A stretch of 43,834 nt of DNA from Clostridia bacterium. Its GTDB lineage: Bacteria > Bacillota > Clostridia > Oscillospirales > CAG-382. The DNA is taken from assembly GCA_017397805.1 (NCBI GenBank), contig JAFQHW010000047.1:1-43834 (forward strand), in the 5' to 3' direction. The first letter of the stretch is position 1. Each line of letters starts with the position of its first letter. Below the pieces are notes generated by a model, which made no database searches, was not told where the DNA came from, and saw only the letters and a program-made list of their open reading frames with translations. Made by a program: the position numbers and the translations under genes. Shown piece by piece: positions 1,964-15,867 of this stretch.

Positions 1964-2902
1964 CTACTTCTTGTTCGAATAGATCTTTGTGATTGATTCC
2001 CTATGATGCCCCAAGCTCTCGCTAAGGTTGCGCTTGGCGTTGCGAATGTGATTTGCCTCCAACCATTCATCGCGCTTCTGTGTATAATAGTGACGAAGTC
2101 CGTGAAACGTGATCTTGTCAACCTTGGGCTTATAGCCTTCTTTCACATCATTCGTTCTATCGGATTCGGTGAACTTTGAACGATGGTTGATTACCCAATT
2201 CTGCCAGGAATCGATTTTGCGCTTAACACCATACTTCTTGTTTTCGCTTAAAACCAACTCCATACCCTGCAAGCCGTTCTTGGTTGCATGCGCTTTCAGA
2301 TCATTGAGTAACTCACGCTGTTCCGATCTTTCAACCGGAACTTCACGCACCTGACCGCCTTTACCCTTGACCCACAAGTGATCGTTATCAAGAGCCTTTT
2401 CAATGTGCTCTACGCGAATTCTTGCGACCTCACTTACACGAAGACCAAATTCTTTAGACAAGCCAATTGCAAAAACCACATCGGTTCTCCCCATTGCTTT
2501 TGCAAGTGCAACTGCCTTTTCGATTTCTTCGGGAAGCCAAGAACGATCCATTTCTCCGACTTTGCGTTTTTCCAATCCTAACTCGGCGTTATCGGGAAGA
2601 CGGTTTTTGCCGCCTACCAAACGATAAACGTAACGAATGGCGGAGAGATCGGACATAATGGTTGCAGGTGCAATGCCATCCGCTTGTCTTTTCTTGACAT
2701 AAGCACGAAGGTGTTTGCCGCTGAGGTTAGCAAACTTCTGCAAATGAAATTCTTTTACAAGAAATTCAACAAGCGGAGCTATTGCGCTTAAATAGCGTGC
2801 CTTGGTTGAATAGTGTCCCTCATTTGTATGATCAAAAGCAGACAAGATTTGAGCGATCATATTGTTGCTCATAGGAATTCTTGGATATTTGTATTTACCC
2901 AT
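1964..2902 (-). CDS. Tyrosine recombinase / phage-type integrase (312 aa)
   Basis: Catalyses site-specific strand exchange through a 3'-phosphotyrosine intermediate. The N-terminal half is a SAM-like core-binding domain with LSGKHLRAYVKKRQADG. The C-terminal half carries the family signature: first Arg in EFGLRVSEVARIR (about residue 175), HGLRHYYTQKR for the His-x-x-Arg box, then LGHHRESITKIYS with the nucleophilic Tyr close to the C-terminus. Length is normal for the family. It starts at an ATG behind AGAAAGGAG. It has an unusually long (about 280-base) leader with inverted repeats and a consensus promoter at 3186-3214. It most likely moves the island or an older element within it; it is distinct in sequence from the second recombinase at 11218. 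Confidence 0.9.
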   Translation of the reverse strand: MGKYKYPRIPMSNNMIAQILSAFDHTNEGHYSTKARYLSAIAPLVEFLVKEFHLQKFANLSGKHLRAYVKKRQADGIAPATIMSDLSAIRYVYRLVGGKNRLPDNAELGLEKRKVGEMDRSWLPEEIEKAVALAKAMGRTDVVFAIGLSKEFGLRVSEVARIRVEHIEKALDNDHLWVKGKGGQVREVPVERSEQRELLNDLKAHATKNGLQGMELVLSENKKYGVKRKIDSWQNWVINHRSKFTESDRTNDVKEGYKPKVDKITFHGLRHYYTQKRDEWLEANHIRNAKRNLSESLGHHRESITKIYSNKK

Positions 2903-3185: not shown

Positions 3186-3214
3186 AATATAGTACATACT
3201 TTTCGATTTGTCAA
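3186..3214 (-). promoter_or_regulatory. Promoter directed at the tyrosine integrase
   Basis: On the minus strand TTGACA (3214-3209), a 17-base spacer and TATATT (3191-3186) form a near-consensus sigma-A promoter. The -35 region and spacer share 17 identical bases (3199-3215) with the trmO promoter at 20850-20866. No other gene lies between it and the integrase start at 2902. Confidence 0.75.
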
Positions 3215-3253
3215 GTAGCTACAGCAAATTTTTTCATATTTTTTTAACATGGC

Positions 3254-3294
3254 AAAAAATCGGCGGTGCAGGAGCTTCAATCTCCTGCACCGCC
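3254..3294 (-). terminator. Strong minus-strand intrinsic terminator
   Basis: GGCGGTGCAGGAG (3262-3274) and CTCCTGCACCGCC (3282-3294) form a perfect 13-bp stem with a 7-base loop. On the minus strand the stem is followed by GA and six T's (3259-3254). It would end a minus-strand transcript coming from the gene-free stretch to its right and insulate the integrase promoter. Confidence 0.8.
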
Positions 3295-3371
3295 TTTGAA
3301 AAAGCAGGGCATTTTGCGCCGTCATTCCGAAAGGATGTCCATAGTCATATCGAAAATGATTATTCAGCCGA

Positions 3372-3427
3372 CTGTTTGATGTTTATTTGGTATCATTCCG
3401 CATTGACATCATTTGAACATCAAACAG
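3372..3427. repeat. Inverted repeat, 12-bp arms
   Basis: CTGTTTGATGTT (3372-3383) and AACATCAAACAG (3416-3427) are perfect inverted copies with a 32-base centre that itself contains one copy of the 10-base repeat. Confidence 0.65.
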
Positions 3428-3567
3428 CCGGAACACGCCGCAGGCGTGAAAATGCGCGGTCATATCGATTAGACGGTCATACTTTCCGATAGGTAGAGCA
3501 TAGTTAAATGTTTATTATTTAATAAAGAAATCATAAATCATATCGAAGTTATCATTTCGAAAAGACC

Positions 3568-3616
3568 AAAAGGGCATAACTCACCCACTGCACGTAGGGG
3601 CGAAGTATGCCCTTTT
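3568..3616. other. GGGCATA hairpin, possible transfer-origin-like or terminator element
   Basis: AAAAGGGCATA (3568-3578) pairs perfectly over 11 bp with TATGCCCTTTT (3606-3616). The 27-base centre contains ACCC and GGGG that can pair and the segment CACGTAGGGGCGAAG. Runs of T follow on both strands, so it could be a bidirectional terminator. Its size and position near an integrase would also suit an oriT-type hairpin, but there is no relaxase gene in the window to support that. Confidence 0.4.
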
Positions 3617-3681
3617 TCTATCATTTTCTTTCCGAAAGGATGGCAAAACCCTTGTTGACGCAAGGCTTTTGTCTGTCATAG

Positions 3682-3725
3682 GGCAATAGTTTCTATTTTA
3701 CTTTCGTATAATAGAAACCATTGCC
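3682..3725. repeat. Long hairpin-forming inverted repeat
   Basis: GGCAAT-a-GTTTCTATT (3682-3697) pairs with AATAGAAAC-c-ATTGCC (3710-3725): 15 pairs with one internal mismatch and a 12-base loop. There is no T tract on either side, so it is not an obvious terminator. Confidence 0.6.
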
Positions 3726-4241
3726 AGAGAAGGTCATTTTATCATCCCGATTGGAAATCATATGTCATTCCGATGTGACGGTCATATTATCCGTTCCGAA
3801 AAGGCATCATATTCAGTTGCACCGCAAGTGGTGAGTACTCAGGGTAATCCTATTAAAGGATCCCCTTAGCGTACCCATCTGAAACAGAGGTGTCGGCGAA
3901 CCGACTACGCATGCCGAGTACCGAACTCTATCGGTCAGCCCCCTCAACTACAAGGCTGTTCGGCAGAGATTTGATTAACGATCAAATCTTCCAAAACATC
4001 GCCGCACTACGCTGTGCGGGAAAGAAAACGCGGTATAGGTCACAAAACATCTTTCAAGCCGTCTACCGCTGGCGGTTGGCTGTTTGCAAATACCGGCTAC
4101 AACTTAACCTACCGTAGTCATATCTGCTCTCTTTCGGTCACACACAGCCCTGTGAGCCGAATGCTTTTGCATCAACTTCTACTACATTGCTTTTACGAAC
4201 ATTTCTATTCCTCCCAGATTAAACTCTACCTTCCTATATTG

Positions 4242-4272
4242 AAAAAGTACGCCTACAATATTGCAGGCGTAC
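4242..4272 (-). terminator. Terminator of the six-ORF HerA operon
   Basis: GTACGCCT and AGGCGTAC arms (4247-4254 / 4265-4272) around CAATATTG form a hairpin followed on the minus strand by five T's (4246-4242). It lies about 30 bases after the stop codon of the last operon gene. Confidence 0.85.
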
Positions 4273-4300
4273 CTTAAAAAAGCAAGTAATTTAGTTTAGA

Positions 4301-6088
4301 TTAGTCAATAATATTCTTTTTGGTAGGAGTTTCATCCGAATCTCCATAAACCGATTGTTTTTCTTTAACAACCGTATCTACCGTTTGGAGTATTGATTCT
4401 TTGAAACTATCAATATACATGTTATTTTTAATTGCTGAGCAATACTTTTCCAATGCTTCAGCAGACAAAGAATTGTCAGGGGTAAACATAGTAATTATTG
4501 TTAAATTCAAGTTTCGACCGTATTTTTCGCAATAGAACAACATACTTATGCAACGATTGCGTTCGCTGTTAAATTTAAAAATCATAGCGTTAGGATATTC
4601 TAAGTTTACCAAATTTACAGCTTTAGCATTAGCTGAATAATTGACTACTTCTCCATCATAATCAGCAACCAAAGCATCAAACTCTTTGGCAAGTGCCTCG
4701 GCAGATACTTTTTGTCCACTTGCCAGAGGCAAAGTTTTTGTCCATTTAGATTGCGCTAGCGAATAGTTTAAGTCCATTTTCTTCATCGACAGTTTTCTGA
4801 AGAAAACACTATAGTCGTTATTGTTCCAATCAAGAGAACTGTTATCAAAAACAAAATCTTTACTCGGTGCAATATCATAAATACGGATGTTAGCTGTTCC
4901 ACCGCTTTCAAGGAACGAAAGCCTTTCTTGAATATCTGCAGGCAACTGTACACCCAGTTCCACCGATTTTCTCAAAACGAATAATTCTATTTCATACAGT
5001 TCCATCCATGCGAGTCCGGATGCTAAATATGTAGCGTCTTCCCAAGAGGAATCACCCGATGCCATCCAAGTGTTTATAGAATCCATCTCTTGACGAACGA
5101 GAGATATACCGCCTAATTGATTTTTAGCATAAATTTTCGCTAACAGAACCTCAACTTTGGGCACAATAATATTCTTATCTCCAGCAAAATTAACCGTATA
5201 ACGATTAAACATATCGGTTGCTGTATTAAAGTTCTCTACATCAAAAGGCTTTAATTTTGCATAATACCACAAAGACGTAACTGATGATTTTATAAACGAA
5301 AGCAATTTGCCGCTTGCTAATATTTGAATGATATCCTGGTTAGAATTGTAAATATCGGAGACAAAGGTTTTAAGCTTGTTGATGCCTCCTATACTAATCC
5401 ATTCCGCTTGTTTATCAAACAACTCCGGATTATCCATAGGAAAGTCAAAAACTCCATATTCTGTTTGAGTGATGTGCATAAAAGGCAATTCAAACACAAG
5501 GCTTATTGCCGTAGTTAATACTTCTACAGATTTTTCTGATTCATCCGTGTGATACAGCTCATTGAAGCATTCTACAAGGTTAAGTGCATAGACAAGACTT
5601 GGAAGCCCGGGAATGCCACTCGGAGCATCATTTCCGCTCATTTGAGCTCTGAGGTGATTTTTAAGTTCATTATAATAGAAGTTCCAATAATTATCATATG
5701 TTGTTTTATATCTACTGTCAGAAGTAACAGCATTGGACCACATCTGTTTTATGCGATTGTGGTAATATGCTGGCTTTTGTTCGCTATTTACAACGTAACA
5801 AGACTTCATCATCTGGTTATAGATTGATTTCAAATCATTTTCCCATGCCTGATATTTTCGGTTTGCTTCATACTGGGCATCTTCGCTATCAGAACATGCT
5901 CCGGCGATTAATCCTATCAACCCACCGATGATTCCACACACAATGCCCGATGTCATAACACTACCCTCGTTCATAGAACTTTCACCGCACGAGAGAAAGT
6001 CGTCTACACACCAAATCAATCCGCATCCAACTGCACCAATGATTCCTCCAATTATCAAGCCAAGAAACAACCAACTAACTTTTTTCAT
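4301..6088 (-). CDS. Large N-terminally membrane-anchored protein of the HerA operon (595 aa)
   Basis: I do not recognise the family. Two glycine-rich hydrophobic segments (about residues 5-27 and 45-65) are followed by about 525 mostly soluble, helix-rich residues. Two cysteines sit at lipobox-like positions: Cys22 in GAVGC and Cys65 in IAGAC, the latter followed by SDSED. Neither fits the classic L-x-x-C rule perfectly, but the adjacent gene is an Lgt-like lipoprotein acyltransferase, so lipidation is a reasonable hypothesis. Alternatively these are ordinary transmembrane helices. The tail (from about residue 410) contains an alternating hydrophobic region ending in TPTKKNIID. The start at 6088 has AAAGGAAAGG upstream and overlaps the lgt-like gene by 14 bases, so it is translationally coupled. 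Last gene of the operon, followed directly by a terminator. Confidence 0.8.
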   Translation of the reverse strand: MKKVSWLFLGLIIGGIIGAVGCGLIWCVDDFLSCGESSMNEGSVMTSGIVCGIIGGLIGLIAGACSDSEDAQYEANRKYQAWENDLKSIYNQMMKSCYVVNSEQKPAYYHNRIKQMWSNAVTSDSRYKTTYDNYWNFYYNELKNHLRAQMSGNDAPSGIPGLPSLVYALNLVECFNELYHTDESEKSVEVLTTAISLVFELPFMHITQTEYGVFDFPMDNPELFDKQAEWISIGGINKLKTFVSDIYNSNQDIIQILASGKLLSFIKSSVTSLWYYAKLKPFDVENFNTATDMFNRYTVNFAGDKNIIVPKVEVLLAKIYAKNQLGGISLVRQEMDSINTWMASGDSSWEDATYLASGLAWMELYEIELFVLRKSVELGVQLPADIQERLSFLESGGTANIRIYDIAPSKDFVFDNSSLDWNNNDYSVFFRKLSMKKMDLNYSLAQSKWTKTLPLASGQKVSAEALAKEFDALVADYDGEVVNYSANAKAVNLVNLEYPNAMIFKFNSERNRCISMLFYCEKYGRNLNLTIITMFTPDNSLSAEALEKYCSAIKNNMYIDSFKESILQTVDTVVKEKQSVYGDSDETPTKKNIID

Positions 6089-7045: not shown

Positions 7046-7732
7046 TTAGCAACCTCCTATAATTGTTTTGAATCTTGTTGTGGTATTGGGAAAATATTTC
7101 TCCACAAACCCAACGACATCAGCATCATTTTCTGCGTAAATGCCAAAAAGATTTGCAAACACTTCTCGTTCCACAGCTTTTTCCGGCCCGTTCAAACCGT
7201 CCCAATATGAATTACTATGATGATAATAAGCAGCTCCATTTTGATAATATCTATCCATTATCATCGTATTATTGTGAAATACACCTGATAAAATATCAGA
7301 TAGATATCTTGAATCAAAGGCTGATGAATTCTCCAATTCTTCGAGAAGATTATTCAAATTTTGTGATCCTTCCTCATTGCTTGGATTATACCATTCATAA
7401 TCAGCACCAAGTGCGTAATTAAAATTTTCCGTCATTGACGGTCTACCTAATTGTGCATCTGCAAAATGCCCATATTCGTGACGAAATGTTATAGCGTATT
7501 CTTCGTTATCCTTTGTTTCGTCCATACGTATAATGTTATCTATTTCCGAGTAGTGGGATATTTCGGAAACAAATTGTCCATTATAGTTGAGCTTTTTACG
7601 GCATTTTCCCACATTTAAGTTCGAAGAAAATCTTTCAGTTATTTGTTTGATTTCGTCCGTAGCATTTCGAAATCCTTCATTAACAGTTTCTAAACGTTCC
7701 TTAGGAACTGCATCAAAGCAATGTTGCTCCAA
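7046..7732 (-). CDS. Zinc metallopeptidase domain, second half of an ORF split by TGA (228 aa)
   Basis: Contains the zincin motif HEYGH (residues 85-89 from the TTG start) in ITFRHEYGHFADAQLG, with a candidate third zinc ligand in the later Glu-rich helix EKAVEREVFANLF. The frame is the same as that of the coiled-coil ORF upstream: one TGA codon (7763-7765) and ten further sense codons separate them. A TTG at 7732 with AGGA just upstream could allow independent initiation, but it is weak. Without the TGA the two would form one protein of about 399 residues: coiled coil, then peptidase, as in many secreted effector or conflict proteins. Whether this is a nonsense mutation, readthrough, or true separate translation cannot be told from sequence. 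Followed by a coupled 68-aa gene. Confidence 0.7.
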   Translation of the reverse strand: MEQHCFDAVPKERLETVNEGFRNATDEIKQITERFSSNLNVGKCRKKLNYNGQFVSEISHYSEIDNIIRMDETKDNEEYAITFRHEYGHFADAQLGRPSMTENFNYALGADYEWYNPSNEEGSQNLNNLLEELENSSAFDSRYLSDILSGVFHNNTMIMDRYYQNGAAYYHHSNSYWDGLNGPEKAVEREVFANLFGIYAENDADVVGFVEKYFPNTTTRFKTIIGGC

Positions 7733-8257: not shown

Positions 8258-10864
8258 TTACAAATTAATTAACATTGTCGCTTTACGGAATTTCTTTTCG
8301 AATGTTATGCCAATTGTTTTGATAATTTCTATAAGTTGTTCTTTCCGTGTTGCTTCTATAAAACTATCATCCAGGATTTTGCACTCGTACAAATAGGAAC
8401 GATTCAAAATCTTCAACCCGTTAAGTGCATCTACTTTTGTTTCGATCCATTTATGGAATGTGTCTACATCCATTGCATTCAAATCAACATTTTTCAACGA
8501 GTTTATTAATTTAATTTCCTTATCAAGTGCAGCTTCTACTTTGGTTTTTATATGCTCAAATTTTTCGTTTTCCTCTTTAACACGAATTGCTTTATACGAA
8601 GGTTTGTTTTTCATAATTTCAAACAACTCTTTATCGTCTGGTGTTTCTTCTCCGTGTTCGGGAACTAATGCCACTTGCATTTCAAACGGTCGGAGTAATT
8701 TTTCATATGTAATTAAAGCTTGTCCGCTTGTATACGTTGCCATATTCTCCATTTGCAAGGGGCTTGCTGACATTGTGCTTCCAACAAGTCCTCTGTCATC
8801 GGATGCGGTCAATCTATGAACAAGTTTAATATTAGTGTTTTTGATAACCTCGGGAGCCATTGCCGTAGGCAACTGATCAGCAATTATAATTCCTTCCCTC
8901 AATGCACGAACTTCCGCAAGCATTTTCACTATATAAGCAGTTGCAGCAATCTTGGGATTTGAATCTTGCGGATCATCCACCTGAGACTCTGCGGCAATTA
9001 GGTTGTGTGCTTCCTCTATAAAAATGACATGACGAACAGGCTTATTTCTGTCTTTATACGGATTTGCTTTCAAAGTTTCTCTGATGAGTGTACAAAGCAA
9101 AAGAGTAACGAAATTTGCAGGTCCTTCACCAAGTGCCTCTAACTCCACTACAACAGGTCGTTCCAGCCATTCCTCAGGAGAAAGTGTTGATTTCTTTACA
9201 TCAAACATATCCTTCATTTCTCGTCTTAGCAAACTGCCGATTCGCATTTCCAAAACAGAGCGGATATTACCTTGAATTTCGCTGTCATAGTTTGTGTTTA
9301 ACAGTTCTTTTTCAAACTGATTATATAGTTCCGACATTGTCGGATATTCTTTTACCCCAGTGTTAATGTCTTTAGCATTCCATCCACGGTTTTCATATAT
9401 TTTTTGTATTGCTCGGTCAAGTATAAAAGGCGCCGGAGGAGCTATGGGGAAAGCACCTTCAAAAACTTGGCACAATCTGTTTATGTGCTCTGACAAGGTG
9501 AGTCCCAATGGAAATTCGAATGGATTGATTTTTATAGGGAAATTAGTACGTGCTGACGGAGAAAATATTATCAATTCAGGTATATCAAACAGTGCTAATT
9601 CTCTGTATTCTCTCTTAGCAGGTTCAAGAACCAAAAACGGAATGTGTGCTTTTGTTTCCTTTCCGTTTTCATCTATAACCGAATGATTCCATAGGCTATT
9701 TGCTATCAACAACATTGTGTTCGTTTTTCCTGAGCCAGGAACACCACAAACAAACATATGCTTCGGGAAAAGTTTTTCGGGAATCTTAACATCATAGTTA
9801 TTTGTGTCTTTACCAATTATAATTCCGCTTTTTTCATGCAGAGGAGATGTTTCTTTTGGTATTTCTATTGATTCGCCGTCATAAAGTATCGGAAATCTCA
9901 CAAATGCTGAAATCTCTTCCGAAGTAAAAGTTATTGGCCAATTTTTCAATGAGTTAGGAGCATTTTCGCTGTGATATTGTTGGTTCTCGTCGATACGATC
10001 AAACAAATTATTTTCACTGAATTCTAAAACATTAAAATTGCCTGTAATGGTTTTAATGGTTCCTGTACCATTTTTAACGCTTTCAGTTATAGCGCTATCT
10101 AACAAAAGTTGTGAATAATGCTTATCGTTAGAAAGTGCACACACTCTACACTTATATACAGGATTTTCATCAATCGACTTCAACCAATCTTCGTACTGAT
10201 GTAATGTTTCATCAGCGTTTGGATCTCTTTTTTCGGTTTCGATTCTTGACAGTTCACTAATTCCGGATGTTTTATTCGAAATGTTTCTTAAATAACGCAA
10301 GGGACGTTCAAAACTGCTATGTATTTCATCCTCTAATCCATGTTGGGAATACAAATCTACTCGATAACAACATTTTTCATCAAAGGCTTGCATCATTTTC
10401 AGCAATCCATAAAGCCTTGCTTCTTCGTTCATTTCCCAATTTTGAACGACATAAAAATATTGTTCCTCATTATTAAGAGAGGTCTGTAATAAACGTTCCT
10501 TCTTTATCATGATTGCCATTTCAGAAAAATGTTCTGTAGGCAAAATGGTGTCATCAACTTCTTTGAAATTAAAATAACTCGAAATACCAGAAGCTTTTAT
10601 TACCTTTTTAAGCTTAAAGTTATAATTATCTTCTTTTGACAATCCAGAGAAAAACATCAATATACTCAATTTCTGTCCGTCTTGACGCTTCGGATCATAG
10701 TCGAACAAAAAGTGAATATTCGTTTTCCCCAATAAAGATATTCTATGCAATTGTTTGATAAACTGTGTCTGCGCTGCAATCATACCCTCAATTCCAGAAT
10801 CCGCAAAAACTTGGTATTTACTTAAAGTTAAATCTGGAATAGTCTGAATCTGATAAATTAACAA
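8258..10864 (-). CDS. HerA/FtsK-superfamily ATPase (868 aa)
   Basis: The central and C-terminal parts form a HerA/VirB4/FtsK-type motor. Walker A is GVPGSGKT at residues 374-381, preceded by PEKLFPKHMFVCG. Walker B is HVIFIEEAH at 612-620 with tandem Glu. HRLTASDDRGLVGSTMSA (683-700) resembles the conserved ATPase segment after Walker B. The N-terminal 330 residues are not recognisable and contain a C-x-x-C (KCRVCAL, about 240). No membrane helix. The start is TTG at 10862-10864 with a strong AAAGGAGG eight bases upstream. HerA-like motors pump DNA (with NurA, Sir2 or nuclease partners in defence) or protein (VirB4, EssC). No nuclease partner is present; lipoprotein and peptidase partners favour an envelope role. 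First gene of the operon; its only strong promoter lies on an invertible segment. Confidence 0.85.
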   Translation of the reverse strand: MLIYQIQTIPDLTLSKYQVFADSGIEGMIAAQTQFIKQLHRISLLGKTNIHFLFDYDPKRQDGQKLSILMFFSGLSKEDNYNFKLKKVIKASGISSYFNFKEVDDTILPTEHFSEMAIMIKKERLLQTSLNNEEQYFYVVQNWEMNEEARLYGLLKMMQAFDEKCCYRVDLYSQHGLEDEIHSSFERPLRYLRNISNKTSGISELSRIETEKRDPNADETLHQYEDWLKSIDENPVYKCRVCALSNDKHYSQLLLDSAITESVKNGTGTIKTITGNFNVLEFSENNLFDRIDENQQYHSENAPNSLKNWPITFTSEEISAFVRFPILYDGESIEIPKETSPLHEKSGIIIGKDTNNYDVKIPEKLFPKHMFVCGVPGSGKTNTMLLIANSLWNHSVIDENGKETKAHIPFLVLEPAKREYRELALFDIPELIIFSPSARTNFPIKINPFEFPLGLTLSEHINRLCQVFEGAFPIAPPAPFILDRAIQKIYENRGWNAKDINTGVKEYPTMSELYNQFEKELLNTNYDSEIQGNIRSVLEMRIGSLLRREMKDMFDVKKSTLSPEEWLERPVVVELEALGEGPANFVTLLLCTLIRETLKANPYKDRNKPVRHVIFIEEAHNLIAAESQVDDPQDSNPKIAATAYIVKMLAEVRALREGIIIADQLPTAMAPEVIKNTNIKLVHRLTASDDRGLVGSTMSASPLQMENMATYTSGQALITYEKLLRPFEMQVALVPEHGEETPDDKELFEIMKNKPSYKAIRVKEENEKFEHIKTKVEAALDKEIKLINSLKNVDLNAMDVDTFHKWIETKVDALNGLKILNRSYLYECKILDDSFIEATRKEQLIEIIKTIGITFEKKFRKATMLINL

Positions 10865-10897: not shown

Positions 10898-10920
10898 AAC
10901 ATAATGGCGATTATGTTGTA
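10898..10920 (+). repeat. Left inverted repeat of the invertible promoter segment
   Basis: AACATAATGGCGATTATGTTGTA is 23 bases and has a perfect inverted copy at 11168-11190. Each copy is itself a near-palindrome, AACATAAT-GGCG-ATTATGTT, the shape expected of a tyrosine-recombinase core site with two arms and an asymmetric centre. It lies 34 bases upstream of the HerA gene start. Confidence 0.9.
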
Positions 10921-10979
10921 ACAAAATAACGCTAAAATAACGTATACATACCAACAATCTCTTTTCATCATAAAAAACA

Positions 10980-11045
10980 GCATGACGAAAAAGCCTTTCC
11001 ATTATTTCCATAAAGAAAGATAAAGGAAAGGCTTTTTTGTCATGC
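10980..11045. terminator. Bidirectional terminator inside the invertible segment
   Basis: GCATGACgAAAAAGCCTTTCC (10980-11000) pairs with 11025-11045 over about 20 bp with one mismatch and a 24-base loop. T runs occur on both strands. In the present orientation it would stop any transcript running left from the recombinase toward the HerA gene. Confidence 0.85.
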
Positions 11046-11095
11046 CAACAATTTCATTTATACTAACCAAACCTTTGAAAGATTTGTAAAATCAG

Positions 11096-11124
11096 TTGAT
11101 TTACTGTCGAATTTATGCTATAAT
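11096..11124 (+). promoter_or_regulatory. Promoter on the invertible segment, in OFF orientation
   Basis: TTGATT (11096-11101), 17-base spacer, and TGCTATAAT with TATAAT at 11119-11124: five of six -35 bases, a perfect -10 and an extended TG. Predicted start near 11131. It points right, away from the HerA operon, and its transcript meets a terminator at 11196-11219 after about 90 bases. Confidence 0.85.
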
Positions 11125-11167
11125 GTTTCCATATTTTATGATTGTAAATAATATGGTGATTAATATC

Positions 11168-11190
11168 TACAACATAATCGCCATTATGTT
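11168..11190 (-). repeat. Right inverted repeat of the invertible promoter segment
   Basis: The exact reverse complement of 10898-10920. It is 27 bases beyond the stop codon of the adjacent tyrosine recombinase, so recombinase gene and site are linked. Confidence 0.9.
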
Positions 11191-11195
11191 ATTTG

Positions 11196-11219
11196 CCGAT
11201 ACTGTGGGTATCGGTTTTT
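11196..11219 (+). terminator. Terminator catching the OFF-orientation transcript
   Basis: CCGATAC (11196-11202) and GTATCGG (11208-11214) form a 7-bp stem with a 5-base loop, followed by five T's (11215-11219). It lies just outside the right inverted repeat and overlaps the end of the recombinase gene on the other strand, so OFF transcripts stop before running antisense into that gene. Confidence 0.75.
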
Positions 11220-12060
11220 ATATTATCAGGCGCATATTTTCCATCTTGCGTTTATGTTCTGCCCCGGTTGTAATAATGTAGATTCGAGTAGTATTGATAC
11301 TGCTGTGACCGAGAATGTCAGCAAGCTTAGCAATATCCTTTTCTATACCGTAAAAAGTACGTGCAAACAGATGGCGAAGATTGTGAGGGAATACCTTATC
11401 AGGAGATACCCCCGCCTGCTCACATAATGCTTTCATCTCACGCCAGATATTGCATCGGCTCATAGGTTTACCGGATTTAGTGATAAAAACACAACCTGTA
11501 GTAATGCCCTTAGCCTTGATATAGTTTAATAGTTTTTTCTGCAACTCCCGAACGATAAACACCGTTCGGGTTTTATTTTTGCAGGAAACTACCGCCTCGC
11601 CCTTACGCACTGCCTCAACCGTGATAAACTGCAATTCGCTGACACGGATACCGGTTCCACAGATTGTCTGTAGTATCAAGTTCAGTCTCTCATTGCATTT
11701 TTGTTTAGCTGTATTTACAAGACGGATATACTCTGATTTCGTAAGTTCCTTCTCTTCGGAACAAAATGCTTTTTTCTGTACCTTAAACTGCTTGATGCAG
11801 CAATCCATCCAACCCATAAACCGCAGAAAAGCATTAACCGCCGCAATCATTGAATTGGCACTTGCAACTTCGTAACTCTCCACAAGCGAAGCCTTAAATT
11901 CCATAACAACTGCCTTGCTGATTTCTCTTGTTCCTACAAACTTAGAAAAAGCCTTTACATCACGCAAATACTTTTCGATGGTATTGTCACTTTTTTCATC
12001 GTTTTGCAGTTGCTCTTGGAAATCATTGAGCACATTAAGTGTTATTGTTCTTTGATTCAT
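11218..12060 (-). CDS. Tyrosine recombinase, probable DNA invertase (about 280 aa)
   Basis: An XerC/XerD-like recombinase. The core-binding domain occupies roughly residues 1-95; the catalytic domain has the first Arg in GTGIRVSELQF, the His-x-x-Arg box in HNLRHLFAR, and LGHSSINTTRIYI with the nucleophilic Tyr. An upstream in-frame ATG (12075) exists, but GGAGGT (12071-12066) lies between it and ATG 12060, which has the better spacing; ATG 12066 is too close. It ends 27 bases from a 23-bp inverted repeat whose partner is 34 bases from the HerA operon, so it most likely inverts that promoter segment rather than moving the island. It is unlike the integrase at 1964 in sequence beyond the shared catalytic motifs. 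Confidence 0.9.
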   Translation of the reverse strand: MNQRTITLNVLNDFQEQLQNDEKSDNTIEKYLRDVKAFSKFVGTREISKAVVMEFKASLVESYEVASANSMIAAVNAFLRFMGWMDCCIKQFKVQKKAFCSEEKELTKSEYIRLVNTAKQKCNERLNLILQTICGTGIRVSELQFITVEAVRKGEAVVSCKNKTRTVFIVRELQKKLLNYIKAKGITTGCVFITKSGKPMSRCNIWREMKALCEQAGVSPDKVFPHNLRHLFARTFYGIEKDIAKLADILGHSSINTTRIYIITTGAEHKRKMENMRLII

Positions 12061-12250
12061 ACTCATTACCTCCATTTATCTATTTTACAACAACTTTTCA
12101 GATGCTGTGGAGTCGAGTATAGATATGAGTAAGAAAAAAGCAAGTAAAAAGAGAATAATTAGTTATAATATAAAATTTTCGTCCAAGAGGGGAAATTAGA
12201 AAAAGAGACTATTCTTTATGTTCAATGCATACAATTAATATAAAAACTAG

Positions 12251-12279
12251 TTGAATTCTATCGCAAATTATGGTAAAAT
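12251..12279 (+). promoter_or_regulatory. Promoter of the TIR gene
   Basis: TTGAAT (12251-12256), 17-base spacer, TAAAAT (12274-12279). The predicted start at about 12286 is only seven bases before ATG 12293 and after the AGGAG at 12281, which argues for translation from ATG 12314. Confidence 0.65.
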
Positions 12280-12313: not shown

Positions 12314-13333
12314 ATGAAAGTGTTTATTAGTTGGTCAGGAGCCACTAGCTTAAAAGTTGCTCAAATTTTTAGAGAATGGCTTCCTTCAGTTATACAGTCT
12401 ATAGAACCTTATGTATCATCCGAGGATATTGACAAAGGCGCGCGATGGAGTACAGATATAGCAACAGAATTAGCCGATTCAACTTTTGGTATTCTATGTG
12501 TTACAAAGGACAATCTAGAAGCACCGTGGCTATCCTTTGAAGCTGGTGCATTGTCAAAAACCATGGAAAAATCCTTTGTAACGCCTTTTCTTTTTGATAT
12601 CAAGCGTTCAGAAGTCAAAGGGCCTATCTTGCAGTTTCAATCCACCATTTTTGAAAAAGATGACATTAAGAAAATGGTTAAAACATTGAATAAAGCAAGC
12701 GGAGATTCTGGTATATCAGAAACACGCCTGGATAATTATTTTGATGTTTGGTATCCAACATTAGAATCCAAACTTAACGAATTAAAGAGCGAAATTGTTT
12801 CTACAAATGAAAGCGATGAGGAACAAAGCGGCGAGCATTCTTCTGAAATTTTAGAAGAGATTCTTGAACTTTCAAGAGATAACCAAAAGCTGTTGAGAAC
12901 ACCGGACACAAAACTGTATGATGATATAGCGTTACTGAAAGACTCCGTAGAACAAATTTCTATACGGAATTCAATGATGTACGACAAAAGAAGAACTAGC
13001 CGGAAATATAATGCTATGTTTTTAGAAGAAGTAGTGCATATGTTTGGTAAAAGTTCTTATGGGTTTTTAATGGCACTGAGTTTATTCAAAGAAGATTTTC
13101 CCTGGATCTATGATATGGGGAAAGAATTGATGGATATTTTAAAGAGTCAAAAAAATCCCGAGGAGAAAATGGGTGCTATACGCGATTTCAGAGAAATGAT
13201 CGATTATACTTGTGGCAATCCCATAATGCGAGATGTATTTGAGCGCAACAAGGACACTATGATGCTTTTAAAAGAAATGCCTTATATTCTAATGAGATAT
13301 TTGGATGATTTATCTGAACATTATATTAAATGA
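12314..13333 (+). CDS. TIR-domain protein (339 aa)
   Basis: Residues 1-130 form a TIR domain: MKVFISWSG at the N-terminus, SEDIDKGARW, and the catalytic Glu76 in APWLSFEAGAL, the position used by NAD-consuming bacterial TIR enzymes. The second half is helical, with an acidic coiled-coil stretch (about 165-210) and a hydrophobic-helix C-terminus, and is not recognisable. Start: ATG 12314 has GGAG seven bases upstream and gives the usual family N-terminus; in-frame ATG 12293 (seven residues longer, AGGAG upstream) and TTG 12251 are alternatives, the last lying in the -35 box. No cyclic-ADPR-sensing partner gene is adjacent, so a complete Thoeris pair is not evident; it looks like a standalone TIR with a built-in sensor region. 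Probable antiphage abortive-infection gene by family and context. Confidence 0.85.
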   Translation: MKVFISWSGATSLKVAQIFREWLPSVIQSIEPYVSSEDIDKGARWSTDIATELADSTFGILCVTKDNLEAPWLSFEAGALSKTMEKSFVTPFLFDIKRSEVKGPILQFQSTIFEKDDIKKMVKTLNKASGDSGISETRLDNYFDVWYPTLESKLNELKSEIVSTNESDEEQSGEHSSEILEEILELSRDNQKLLRTPDTKLYDDIALLKDSVEQISIRNSMMYDKRRTSRKYNAMFLEEVVHMFGKSSYGFLMALSLFKEDFPWIYDMGKELMDILKSQKNPEEKMGAIRDFREMIDYTCGNPIMRDVFERNKDTMMLLKEMPYILMRYLDDLSEHYIK

Positions 13334-14319: not shown

Positions 14320-15867
14320 ATGAAAGCCGTGATTTACGCCAGGTATTCATCGGATAATCAGCGTGAAGAGTCAATCGAAGGTCAGCTTCGTGAATGTATA
14401 GAGTTTGCCAAATATAACGAAATGACCGTCGTAAACACATATATTGATCGTGCTTTGTCAGCAAAAACGGATAACCGTCCCGAATTTCAAAAGATGATTA
14501 AGGACAGCTATAAAGGTGGTTTTGATGTAATCATTGTTTGGAAGTTAGATCGCTTTGCCCGCAACCGCTACGATTCTGCACATTATAAGGCACTTCTTAA
14601 AAAGAATAATGTTCGTGTAATTTCTGCAAAGGAGTCTATCTCCGAAGGTGCTGAAGGCATTTTGCTTGAATCACTCCTTGAAGGCTATGCAGAGTATTAT
14701 TCTGTTGAGCTTGCTGAGAAGGTTAAGCGTGGACTTACCGAAAACGCCTTGAAAGGTAGATGGAACGGTGGAACAGTACCGTTTGGGTATGTAGTTGGTA
14801 AAGAACAAACCTTGGAGATTGATCCCAATACTGCTCCAATTGTAAAGCTAATCTATCAAATGGCTGATGACGGTAAAACTGTTCGTGACATACACAAATA
14901 TTTGGAATTCCAAAGTATTACTCGTAGCAATGGTAAACCACTTCGCTACAATGCAGTTCGATACATTCTTTCTAACAGAACATATATCGGTGAGTACAAC
15001 CATTCGGGAATAAAGATTGAAGACAGCATCCCTGCCATTATTGATAAAATGCAGTTTGAGCGTGTACAAAACGAGTTGAAGAAGAACTCAAAGGCTACTG
15101 CAAGGCATACGGCAGACGATGACTACTTGCTGACTACTAAGCTGTTCTGTGGCAAATGTGGTGCTATGATGGTTGCACAGGCAGGGACAAGCCACACCGG
15201 AAAAGTTCATCGTTATTACGCTTGTGTTCGTCAGAAAAAGCATAAGTGCGACAAGAAGATGTTTCACAAGGAAAAACTTGAAAACTTCATTGTGTATAAA
15301 ACTATGGAGATGCTGAAAGAGGACAGCGTTATAGAGGAACTTGCCGCATTGCTCTATAATCTGCAATACAACGAAAGCACCATCCTACCACAGTTGGAAG
15401 CACAGCTCCACGAGAAAGAGCGAGAGATCGACAATATCGTAACCGCTATTCAGCAGGGTGTTGCTTCGCAGGCATTGATGAAGCGACTGAACGAGATTGA
15501 AAAACAAAAAGAGGATATTGAAACTGCCATAACAAAAGAGCAGATCAAAGCACCGACCTACTCTTTGGATGAATATAGAATGGCATTATGCAATTACCGC
15601 AAGCTGGATATAACCAAACAGGACGGCAAACGCAAACTGATCGACACGTTTATAAACGCTGTTTATGCCTATGACGATCACTTCAAAATCATATACAACG
15701 GGAACAATAAAGAGGAAACAGTAAGTTTGGAAACACTCGAAAACAGTTCAACCTTGTTTTCATCCGGTGCACCAAAAAATCCGAGAACATTGTTCTCGGA
15801 TTTTTGTTGTTTTTTTGGGTGCGTTTTTCAATTTTCGAAGATTGACTATTCCACGATTACGAAATAA
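14320..15867 (+). CDS. Large serine recombinase (515 aa)
   Basis: Integrates or excises DNA through a 5'-phosphoserine intermediate. The resolvase domain (1-150) starts IYARYSSDNQ with the catalytic Ser10 and has VWKLDRFARNRYDSAHYK. A recombinase domain (160-265) contains GGTVPFGYVVG and ILSNRTYIGEY. A zinc ribbon (270-310) is KLFCGKCGAMM followed by ACVRQKKHKCDKK, and a coiled coil (360-410) precedes the tail. Start ATG 14320 has AAGGAGG. The last 30 codons cross a bidirectional terminator (15775-15805), and the stop lies 22 bases inside the 3' end of the convergent mgtC. This suggests the native 3' end lies near the terminator and the ORF extends across the element-chromosome junction. It is the likely mover of the island or its right part. 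Confidence 0.92.
   Translation: MKAVIYARYSSDNQREESIEGQLRECIEFAKYNEMTVVNTYIDRALSAKTDNRPEFQKMIKDSYKGGFDVIIVWKLDRFARNRYDSAHYKALLKKNNVRVISAKESISEGAEGILLESLLEGYAEYYSVELAEKVKRGLTENALKGRWNGGTVPFGYVVGKEQTLEIDPNTAPIVKLIYQMADDGKTVRDIHKYLEFQSITRSNGKPLRYNAVRYILSNRTYIGEYNHSGIKIEDSIPAIIDKMQFERVQNELKKNSKATARHTADDDYLLTTKLFCGKCGAMMVAQAGTSHTGKVHRYYACVRQKKHKCDKKMFHKEKLENFIVYKTMEMLKEDSVIEELAALLYNLQYNESTILPQLEAQLHEKEREIDNIVTAIQQGVASQALMKRLNEIEKQKEDIETAITKEQIKAPTYSLDEYRMALCNYRKLDITKQDGKRKLIDTFINAVYAYDDHFKIIYNGNNKEETVSLETLENSSTLFSSGAPKNPRTLFSDFCCFFGCVFQFSKIDYSTITK
15775..15805. terminator. Bidirectional terminator within the serine recombinase 3' end
   Basis: AAAAATCCGAGAACA (15775-15789) and TGTTCTCGGATTTTT (15791-15805) are perfect inverted copies. 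T runs exist on both strands, so it can serve both the recombinase and the convergent mgtC. It sits upstream of the annotated recombinase stop. Confidence 0.85.

Follow-up and report, generated by a model that had tools for sequence, protein, structure and literature searches.

Sequence analysis predicts a recombinase-linked invertible promoter switch in front of a HerA operon on a Clostridia mobile island

We detected a DNA region that is very probably a self-contained phase-variation switch, in which a recombinase inverts the neighbouring promoter segment governing a five-gene HerA operon. The window, as we call the whole stretch of 43,834 nucleotides that was analysed, is one whole contig of a 1.72-Mb genome of a Clostridia bacterium, and its features are collected in Table 1. 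According to the proposed mechanism, the tyrosine recombinase would recombine two near-palindromic sites, resulting in inversion of the 247-bp segment between them. In the OFF state, the sole good promoter would read rightwards and be stopped at once by the terminator beyond the right repeat, and a hairpin inside the segment would shield the operon from read-through from the recombinase side. In the ON state, transcription would run leftwards from the promoter, across the left repeat and into the genes for HerA, the coiled-coil protein, the HEYGH protein, Lgt and the membrane protein. The switch lies on a mobile island, and the island's cargo slot can hold unrelated operons. The data show the anatomy of the locus, its conservation across the family, site centres that are the same within pairs, both orientations of homologous segments and different cargo in two sister islands; we infer that the recombinase acts on these sites, that the segment flips in this population and that the ON state means transcription of the operon.

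Table 1. Features of the switch, its cargo operon and the surrounding island, with positions in the window.
Feature	Position	Strand	Basis
Tyrosine integrase of the island	1964..2902	-	Profile search and island comparison
Conserved terminator block, far edge of the cargo slot, common to the island of G051	4229..4320	-	DNA comparison and folding
Membrane-anchored 595-aa protein, no family assigned	4301..6088	-	Sequence and model analysis
Prolipoprotein diacylglyceryl transferase (Lgt), the second one in this genome	6075..6839	-	Profile searches
HEYGH (HExxH-like) putative metalloprotein, TTG-started 228-aa ORF, start uncertain	7046..7732	-	Sequence analysis and homologous operons
Coiled-coil protein, 160 aa	7763..8245	-	Sequence analysis and homologous operons
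HerA/DUF87-type ATPase, 868 aa, TTG start, first cargo gene	8258..10864	-	Profile and defence-model searches
Left inverted repeat, putative recombination site, operon side	10898..10920	+	Repeat comparison and genome search
Predicted invertible segment, 247 bp	10921..11167	none	Homologous segments known in both orientations
Bidirectional terminator-like hairpin inside the segment	10980..11045	none	Folding (-36.7 kcal/mol, z -11)
Sigma-70 promoter, TG-extended TTGATT-17-TATAAT, oriented away from the operon (OFF)	11096..11124	+	Promoter scoring and shuffles
Right inverted repeat, putative recombination site, recombinase side	11168..11190	-	Repeat comparison and genome search
Intrinsic terminator, would end the OFF-state transcript ahead of the recombinase gene	11195..11215	+	Terminator/folding analysis
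Tyrosine recombinase of 285 aa, presumably the segment's invertase	11218..12075	-	Profile and homology searches
TIR-TM protein beside the switch, outside switch control; ORF extends to TTG at 12251	12314..13333	+	PADLOC TIR-TM, E 6e-114
Large serine recombinase of the island, CcrB-like match	14320..15867	+	Profile search and island comparison

The first-pass annotation, made from the sequence alone, had proposed perfect 23-bp inverted repeats around a 247-bp interval, and the repeats and their positions agree base for base. Each site is a near-palindrome with a GGCG centre, AACATAAT-GGCG-ATTATGTT, also as proposed. When the whole window was dinucleotide-shuffled 30 times, the longest perfect inverted repeat at 60-1000 bp spacing was 17, compared with 23 bp in the real sequence, and the repeat pair is beyond chance. 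No further copies of the 23-mer were found in the 1.72-Mb genome, except for a match with 3 mismatches to the left site's opposite strand, which arises because the site is near-palindromic. As expected of an inverton, the inverted repeats flank a promoter-bearing segment and a site-specific recombinase adjoins it: the tyrosine recombinase gene that had been placed 27 bases past the right repeat is convergent, with its stop codon 27 bp past the repeat. Its reading frame is intact and the catalytic domain is full-length.

The promoter, described earlier as TTGATT-17-TGCTATAAT and pointing away from the operon, was detected as described, with the -35 element TTGATT at 11096-11101 and the TG-extended -10 element TATAAT at 11119-11124; an equally good promoter occurred in 2 of 1000 shuffles of the segment. 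After inversion, the -10 element would end at 10964, giving an expected transcription start about 93 nt from the TTG at 10864, in agreement with the earlier estimate of about 100 bases between promoter and ATPase start. The internal hairpin, the terminator outside the right repeat and the narrow limit to the left of the left repeat were absent from the first-pass annotation. Only 33 bp separate the left repeat from the operon start, leaving no space for a promoter outside the segment. The segment could in principle be a fixed regulatory region, whose rightward promoter gives a short terminated RNA or regulates the recombinase while the operon is read otherwise, and the terminator beyond the right repeat would yield such a short transcript in the present orientation. 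We consider this very unlikely, since little is left to drive the operon (these 33 bp, and a leftward promoter score of 7.8 for the segment, below the shuffle median of 8.3) and the orientation varies among homologues.

Comparison with related loci places the window's switch in a family of predicted inversion switches that is common in this Clostridia order. At E <= 1e-30, 47 of 149 related genomes encode a relative of the recombinase; at E <= 1e-110, 29 of 394 genomes of the same order do. Scans of viral contigs with the recombinase and with HerA found no relatives. Of the 48 recombinase loci examined, 11 have a contig that stops close to the gene, which leaves 37 with enough sequence. An inverted pair lies beside the recombinase 3' end in 31 of these 37 loci, and the same layout recurs (31/37), consisting of ACATAA-N6-TTATGT sites, a segment of 190-295 bp and one outward promoter. 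The site arms (ACATAA...TTATGT) are nearly constant and the 6-bp centre varies between loci. This centre is identical within all 31 close pairs, which came from a pattern search with the centre left free, compared with 12 of 1347 between-locus comparisons; a separate count of centre identity within pairs gave 25/25. A tyrosine recombinase requires constant arms for binding and a homologous centre for crossover, and constant arms with pair-identical centres match these needs. The rule of fixed arms and a locus-specific 6-bp centre provides a simple pattern for finding switches and for predicting which pairs recombine.

The membership of the recombinase in the integrase superfamily, and the location of the region on a mobile island with other recombinases, would also fit repeats that are attachment sites of an integrating element, with the recombinase as its integrase and the promoter incidental. 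We consider this very unlikely, because the island has other integrase and recombinase genes (Table 1), the sites at nearly all loci form an inverted pair that encloses a single outward promoter and is accompanied by co-directional cargo, the segments occur in both orientations, and inverted sites cause inversion, not excision.

A third site copy was observed at three loci, L046 (G080), L054 (G043) and L052 (G144), each with two direct sites and one inverted; the direct pair is 53-63 bp apart and would permit two alternative inversions or loss of the short piece. Site pairs with distinct centres, together with single sites, occur with no recombinase gene nearby in G124 (L094-L097, L102-L104), G107 (L098) and G089 (L099), where one recombinase may possibly serve many promoters in trans.

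In 29 of the 31 segments, the best promoter reads outward with its end at a distance of 12-47 bp from a repeat, and in 22 of the 31 it lies above the 95% point of shuffles. It is directed toward the recombinase (OFF) in 24 segments and toward the cargo (ON) in 7. All 31 segments have a hairpin upstream of the promoter, with z below -3 relative to shuffles in only 16. To compare orientations with the promoter largely left out, we aligned only the middle of each segment, both as it stands and reversed. Using the central 60%, clear pairs in the same state aligned in the same direction (63/63) and pairs in different states aligned reversed (37/37; together 100/100), and using the central 40%, 187 of 211 pairs were concordant, the best of 5000 label permutations reaching 161; segment pairs are mutually dependent, so these counts are not a probability. 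In the cleanest case, the OFF segment of G082 has to be reversed before it aligns with the ON segment of G412, with 80% identity over 85 nt (E 1e-16). The alignment of ON to OFF segments only when reversed shows that inversion happened repeatedly in evolution, with the segment inverting as a unit. Both orientations, as in invertons, are present among homologous loci, between lineages and not within this species. The OFF orientation of the given assembly and the control of the downstream operon, both claimed previously, are supported by this family-wide comparison.

The nearest switch, in genome G051, has a recombinase 89% identical to that of the window, and its segment shares 97% identity over 195 bp. 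The exception is the 50 bp that adjoin the window's left repeat on the inner side (10921-10972), which are unlike G051 (L039). The window assembly displays a single orientation (OFF), most assembled relatives (24/31) are likewise OFF and silent cargo would cost little, which is consistent with a switch that is real by descent but has since become locked OFF in this lineage and persists on the island as a remnant. We regard such locking as improbable, given that the repeats are still perfect over 23 bp, the recombinase frame and catalytic domain are complete and the promoter is near consensus. The G051 sister switch retains repeats that are equally perfect but have a different centre, which points to continued selection or use. 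We favour a switch that presumably still flips in this population.

Among the 31 best matches to the recombinase, a contig end lies <=350 bp from the segment side of the gene in 11 and from the other side in 0, with 0.53 expected. Contig breaks at the segment are what mixed orientations would cause, an indirect hint that both orientations are present in populations. Repeated recombinase copies can also break contigs, as in G134, but the one-sided clustering (11 vs 0) speaks against gene copies as the general cause. Two candidate cases were rejected: contigs C7/C8/C20 of G134, considered as two orientations within one genome, are different loci, and contigs C11/C12 of G148, considered as a direct flip, appear to be the flanks of a single switch separated by a gap.

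Invertible promoters in general are well known. In the Bacteroides invertible capsule promoters (Mpi-type), a site-specific recombinase likewise inverts a promoter segment before an operon. Mpi acts on many sites in trans and has a recognition sequence different from the present one, whereas here the recombinase adjoins its own site pair and the site centre is locus-specific. The C. difficile switches (cwpV, flg, pdcB/C; RecV) are likewise found in a Clostridia host, with inverted repeats on both sides of a regulatory segment that precedes an operon. Unlike the present switch, RecV works in trans at several loci, and some C. difficile switches use Rho or a leader terminator instead of promoter direction (PMC7446863). 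Antibiotic-resistance genes under invertible promoters (PMC8748976) are similar in that an invertible promoter governs accessory cargo, but that system is found in Bacteroidales with other recombinases and resistance cargo.

Any implication of a new kind of switch has to be corrected, as the window's switch is one of a common family of Clostridia invertons that was probably already described from reads (PMC11892184, Microbiome 2025). In that work, Clostridia inverton group 139 is tied to tyrosine-recombinase invertase group 35, and orientation shifts are given for reads of Clostridium sp. D5 and Intestinimonas butyriciproducens, with IR/segment sizes of 26/205 bp and 14/227 bp, respectively. 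The present family resembles this group in its Clostridia host, its adjacent tyrosine-type recombinase and its repeat and segment sizes, those of the group falling within the family range, and it is probably the same as group 139/invertase group 35, matched by host, recombinase type and geometry. The HerA/Lgt cargo and the cargo exchange are features not found in the available portion of that account, and no phase-variable HerA/Lgt or SPFH/TIR operon was found in the open-access literature. New here are the HerA/Lgt cargo behind such a switch and the evidence for a swappable slot on a mobile island.

The HerA ATPase matched PF01935 with 31.5 bits (cut-off 23.2) and is closest to the defence-database HerA/MADS8 (mad8) and DNA-translocase models, with partial PADLOC matches. 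The cargo had been called an envelope-type system, which fits the second Lgt (the other Lgt of the genome is on contig C5) and the membrane protein, but not the largest gene, the HerA/DUF87 ATPase with its defence and translocase affinities. Such an ATPase and the partial PADLOC matches are shared with HerA-based anti-phage defence (HerA-nuclease pairs, MADS8); in contrast to these systems, no partner effector (nuclease, SIR2, DUF4297 or similar) was matched among the cargo proteins, the partners being the coiled-coil, HEYGH, Lgt and membrane proteins. For HerA and the HEYGH protein, a sequence search of solved structures yielded nothing usable, and the AlphaFold model of HerA from five sequences was too poor for use (pLDDT 45). 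The 595-aa protein model reached pLDDT 66, with a best Foldseek E of 0.05 and a best VIA Z of 8.4 for part of the C-terminal domain; these matches are weak and scattered, so no fold is claimed. Our leading guess, a tentative one, is that the cargo is a membrane-bound DNA-translocating defence or exchange system.

The operon core was found in four other genomes (Clostridia RGIG8738, two uncultured Ruminococcus and Ruminococcus UBA6407), with HerA 65-72% identical, and the HerA operon occurs in 2 of 394 genomes of the order. One of the four homologous operons (L145) is without the Lgt and HEYGH genes, and an integrase-like or resolvase-like gene lies directly upstream of the operon in two of the four. 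The operon is rare and apparently mobile. No ACATAA-type repeats were found upstream of HerA in these four genomes within the sequence available, an absence that is weaker for two of them because their contigs extend only 250-310 bp beyond HerA on the upstream side. The first-pass annotation had named missing repeats at homologous loci as evidence against the switch; the repeats are indeed absent at the four operons, yet the recombinase is absent there too, and the switch reading is not refuted. Given this joint absence, the switch is a feature of the island and not of the cargo. The four homologues without a switch speak against the cargo as a conserved partner, and the cargo-switch coupling comes from one genome. 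A rare, uncharacterised HerA/Lgt operon is in this way tied to predicted on/off switching.

DNA similarity between the window and G051 covers the recombinase and the segment up to the left repeat, breaks there, and returns at the terminator block, directly behind the final cargo gene, and at 3252-3453. Past the terminator block both islands encode a related tyrosine integrase (35%), and on the other side a related serine recombinase (42%). Between these shared borders, the two sister islands carry different cargo, the HerA operon in the window versus an unrelated SPFH (Band 7) operon in G051. The cargo slot, reaching from the left repeat to the conserved terminator, may be swappable, a possible new principle. 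Related switches in G110, G140 and G245, as well as the one on contig C53 of the window's own genome, also front similar SPFH cargo, in some cases with TIR-TPR proteins, and the SPFH-cargo switches are scattered over the recombinase tree. Behind more distant switches lie operons for surface proteins, a glycosyltransferase, GGDEF proteins, a histidine kinase and a signal peptidase. Across the order, the cargo of this one recombinase-promoter module is thus highly varied, including SPFH/TIR-TPR, surface proteins, glycosyltransferases and signalling. It is conceivable, if somewhat doubtful, that Clostridia mobile islands with a plug-in slot behind their own invertible promoter make captured operons, often candidate immune systems, bet-hedged and phase-variable. 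If so, a captured operon (SPFH with TIR-TPR, or HerA/Lgt) would be phase-variable at once. Should the cargo serve in defence, its phase variation would help to explain the persistence of costly systems on mobile islands.

The switch copy on contig C53 (G000:C53 7766-8892, L038; recombinase 69%), the second in this genome, is OFF and fronts an SPFH operon with two tandem TIR-TPR proteins. In the window, the TIR-TM gene is divergent from the recombinase gene and lies within the same island. A long non-coding stretch between cargo and integrase (3200-4230) contains the short repeated motifs GTCATTCCGA/TCATATCGA and is partly common to G051. The 3' end of the serine recombinase gene overlaps a convergent MgtC-family gene and probably marks one island edge.
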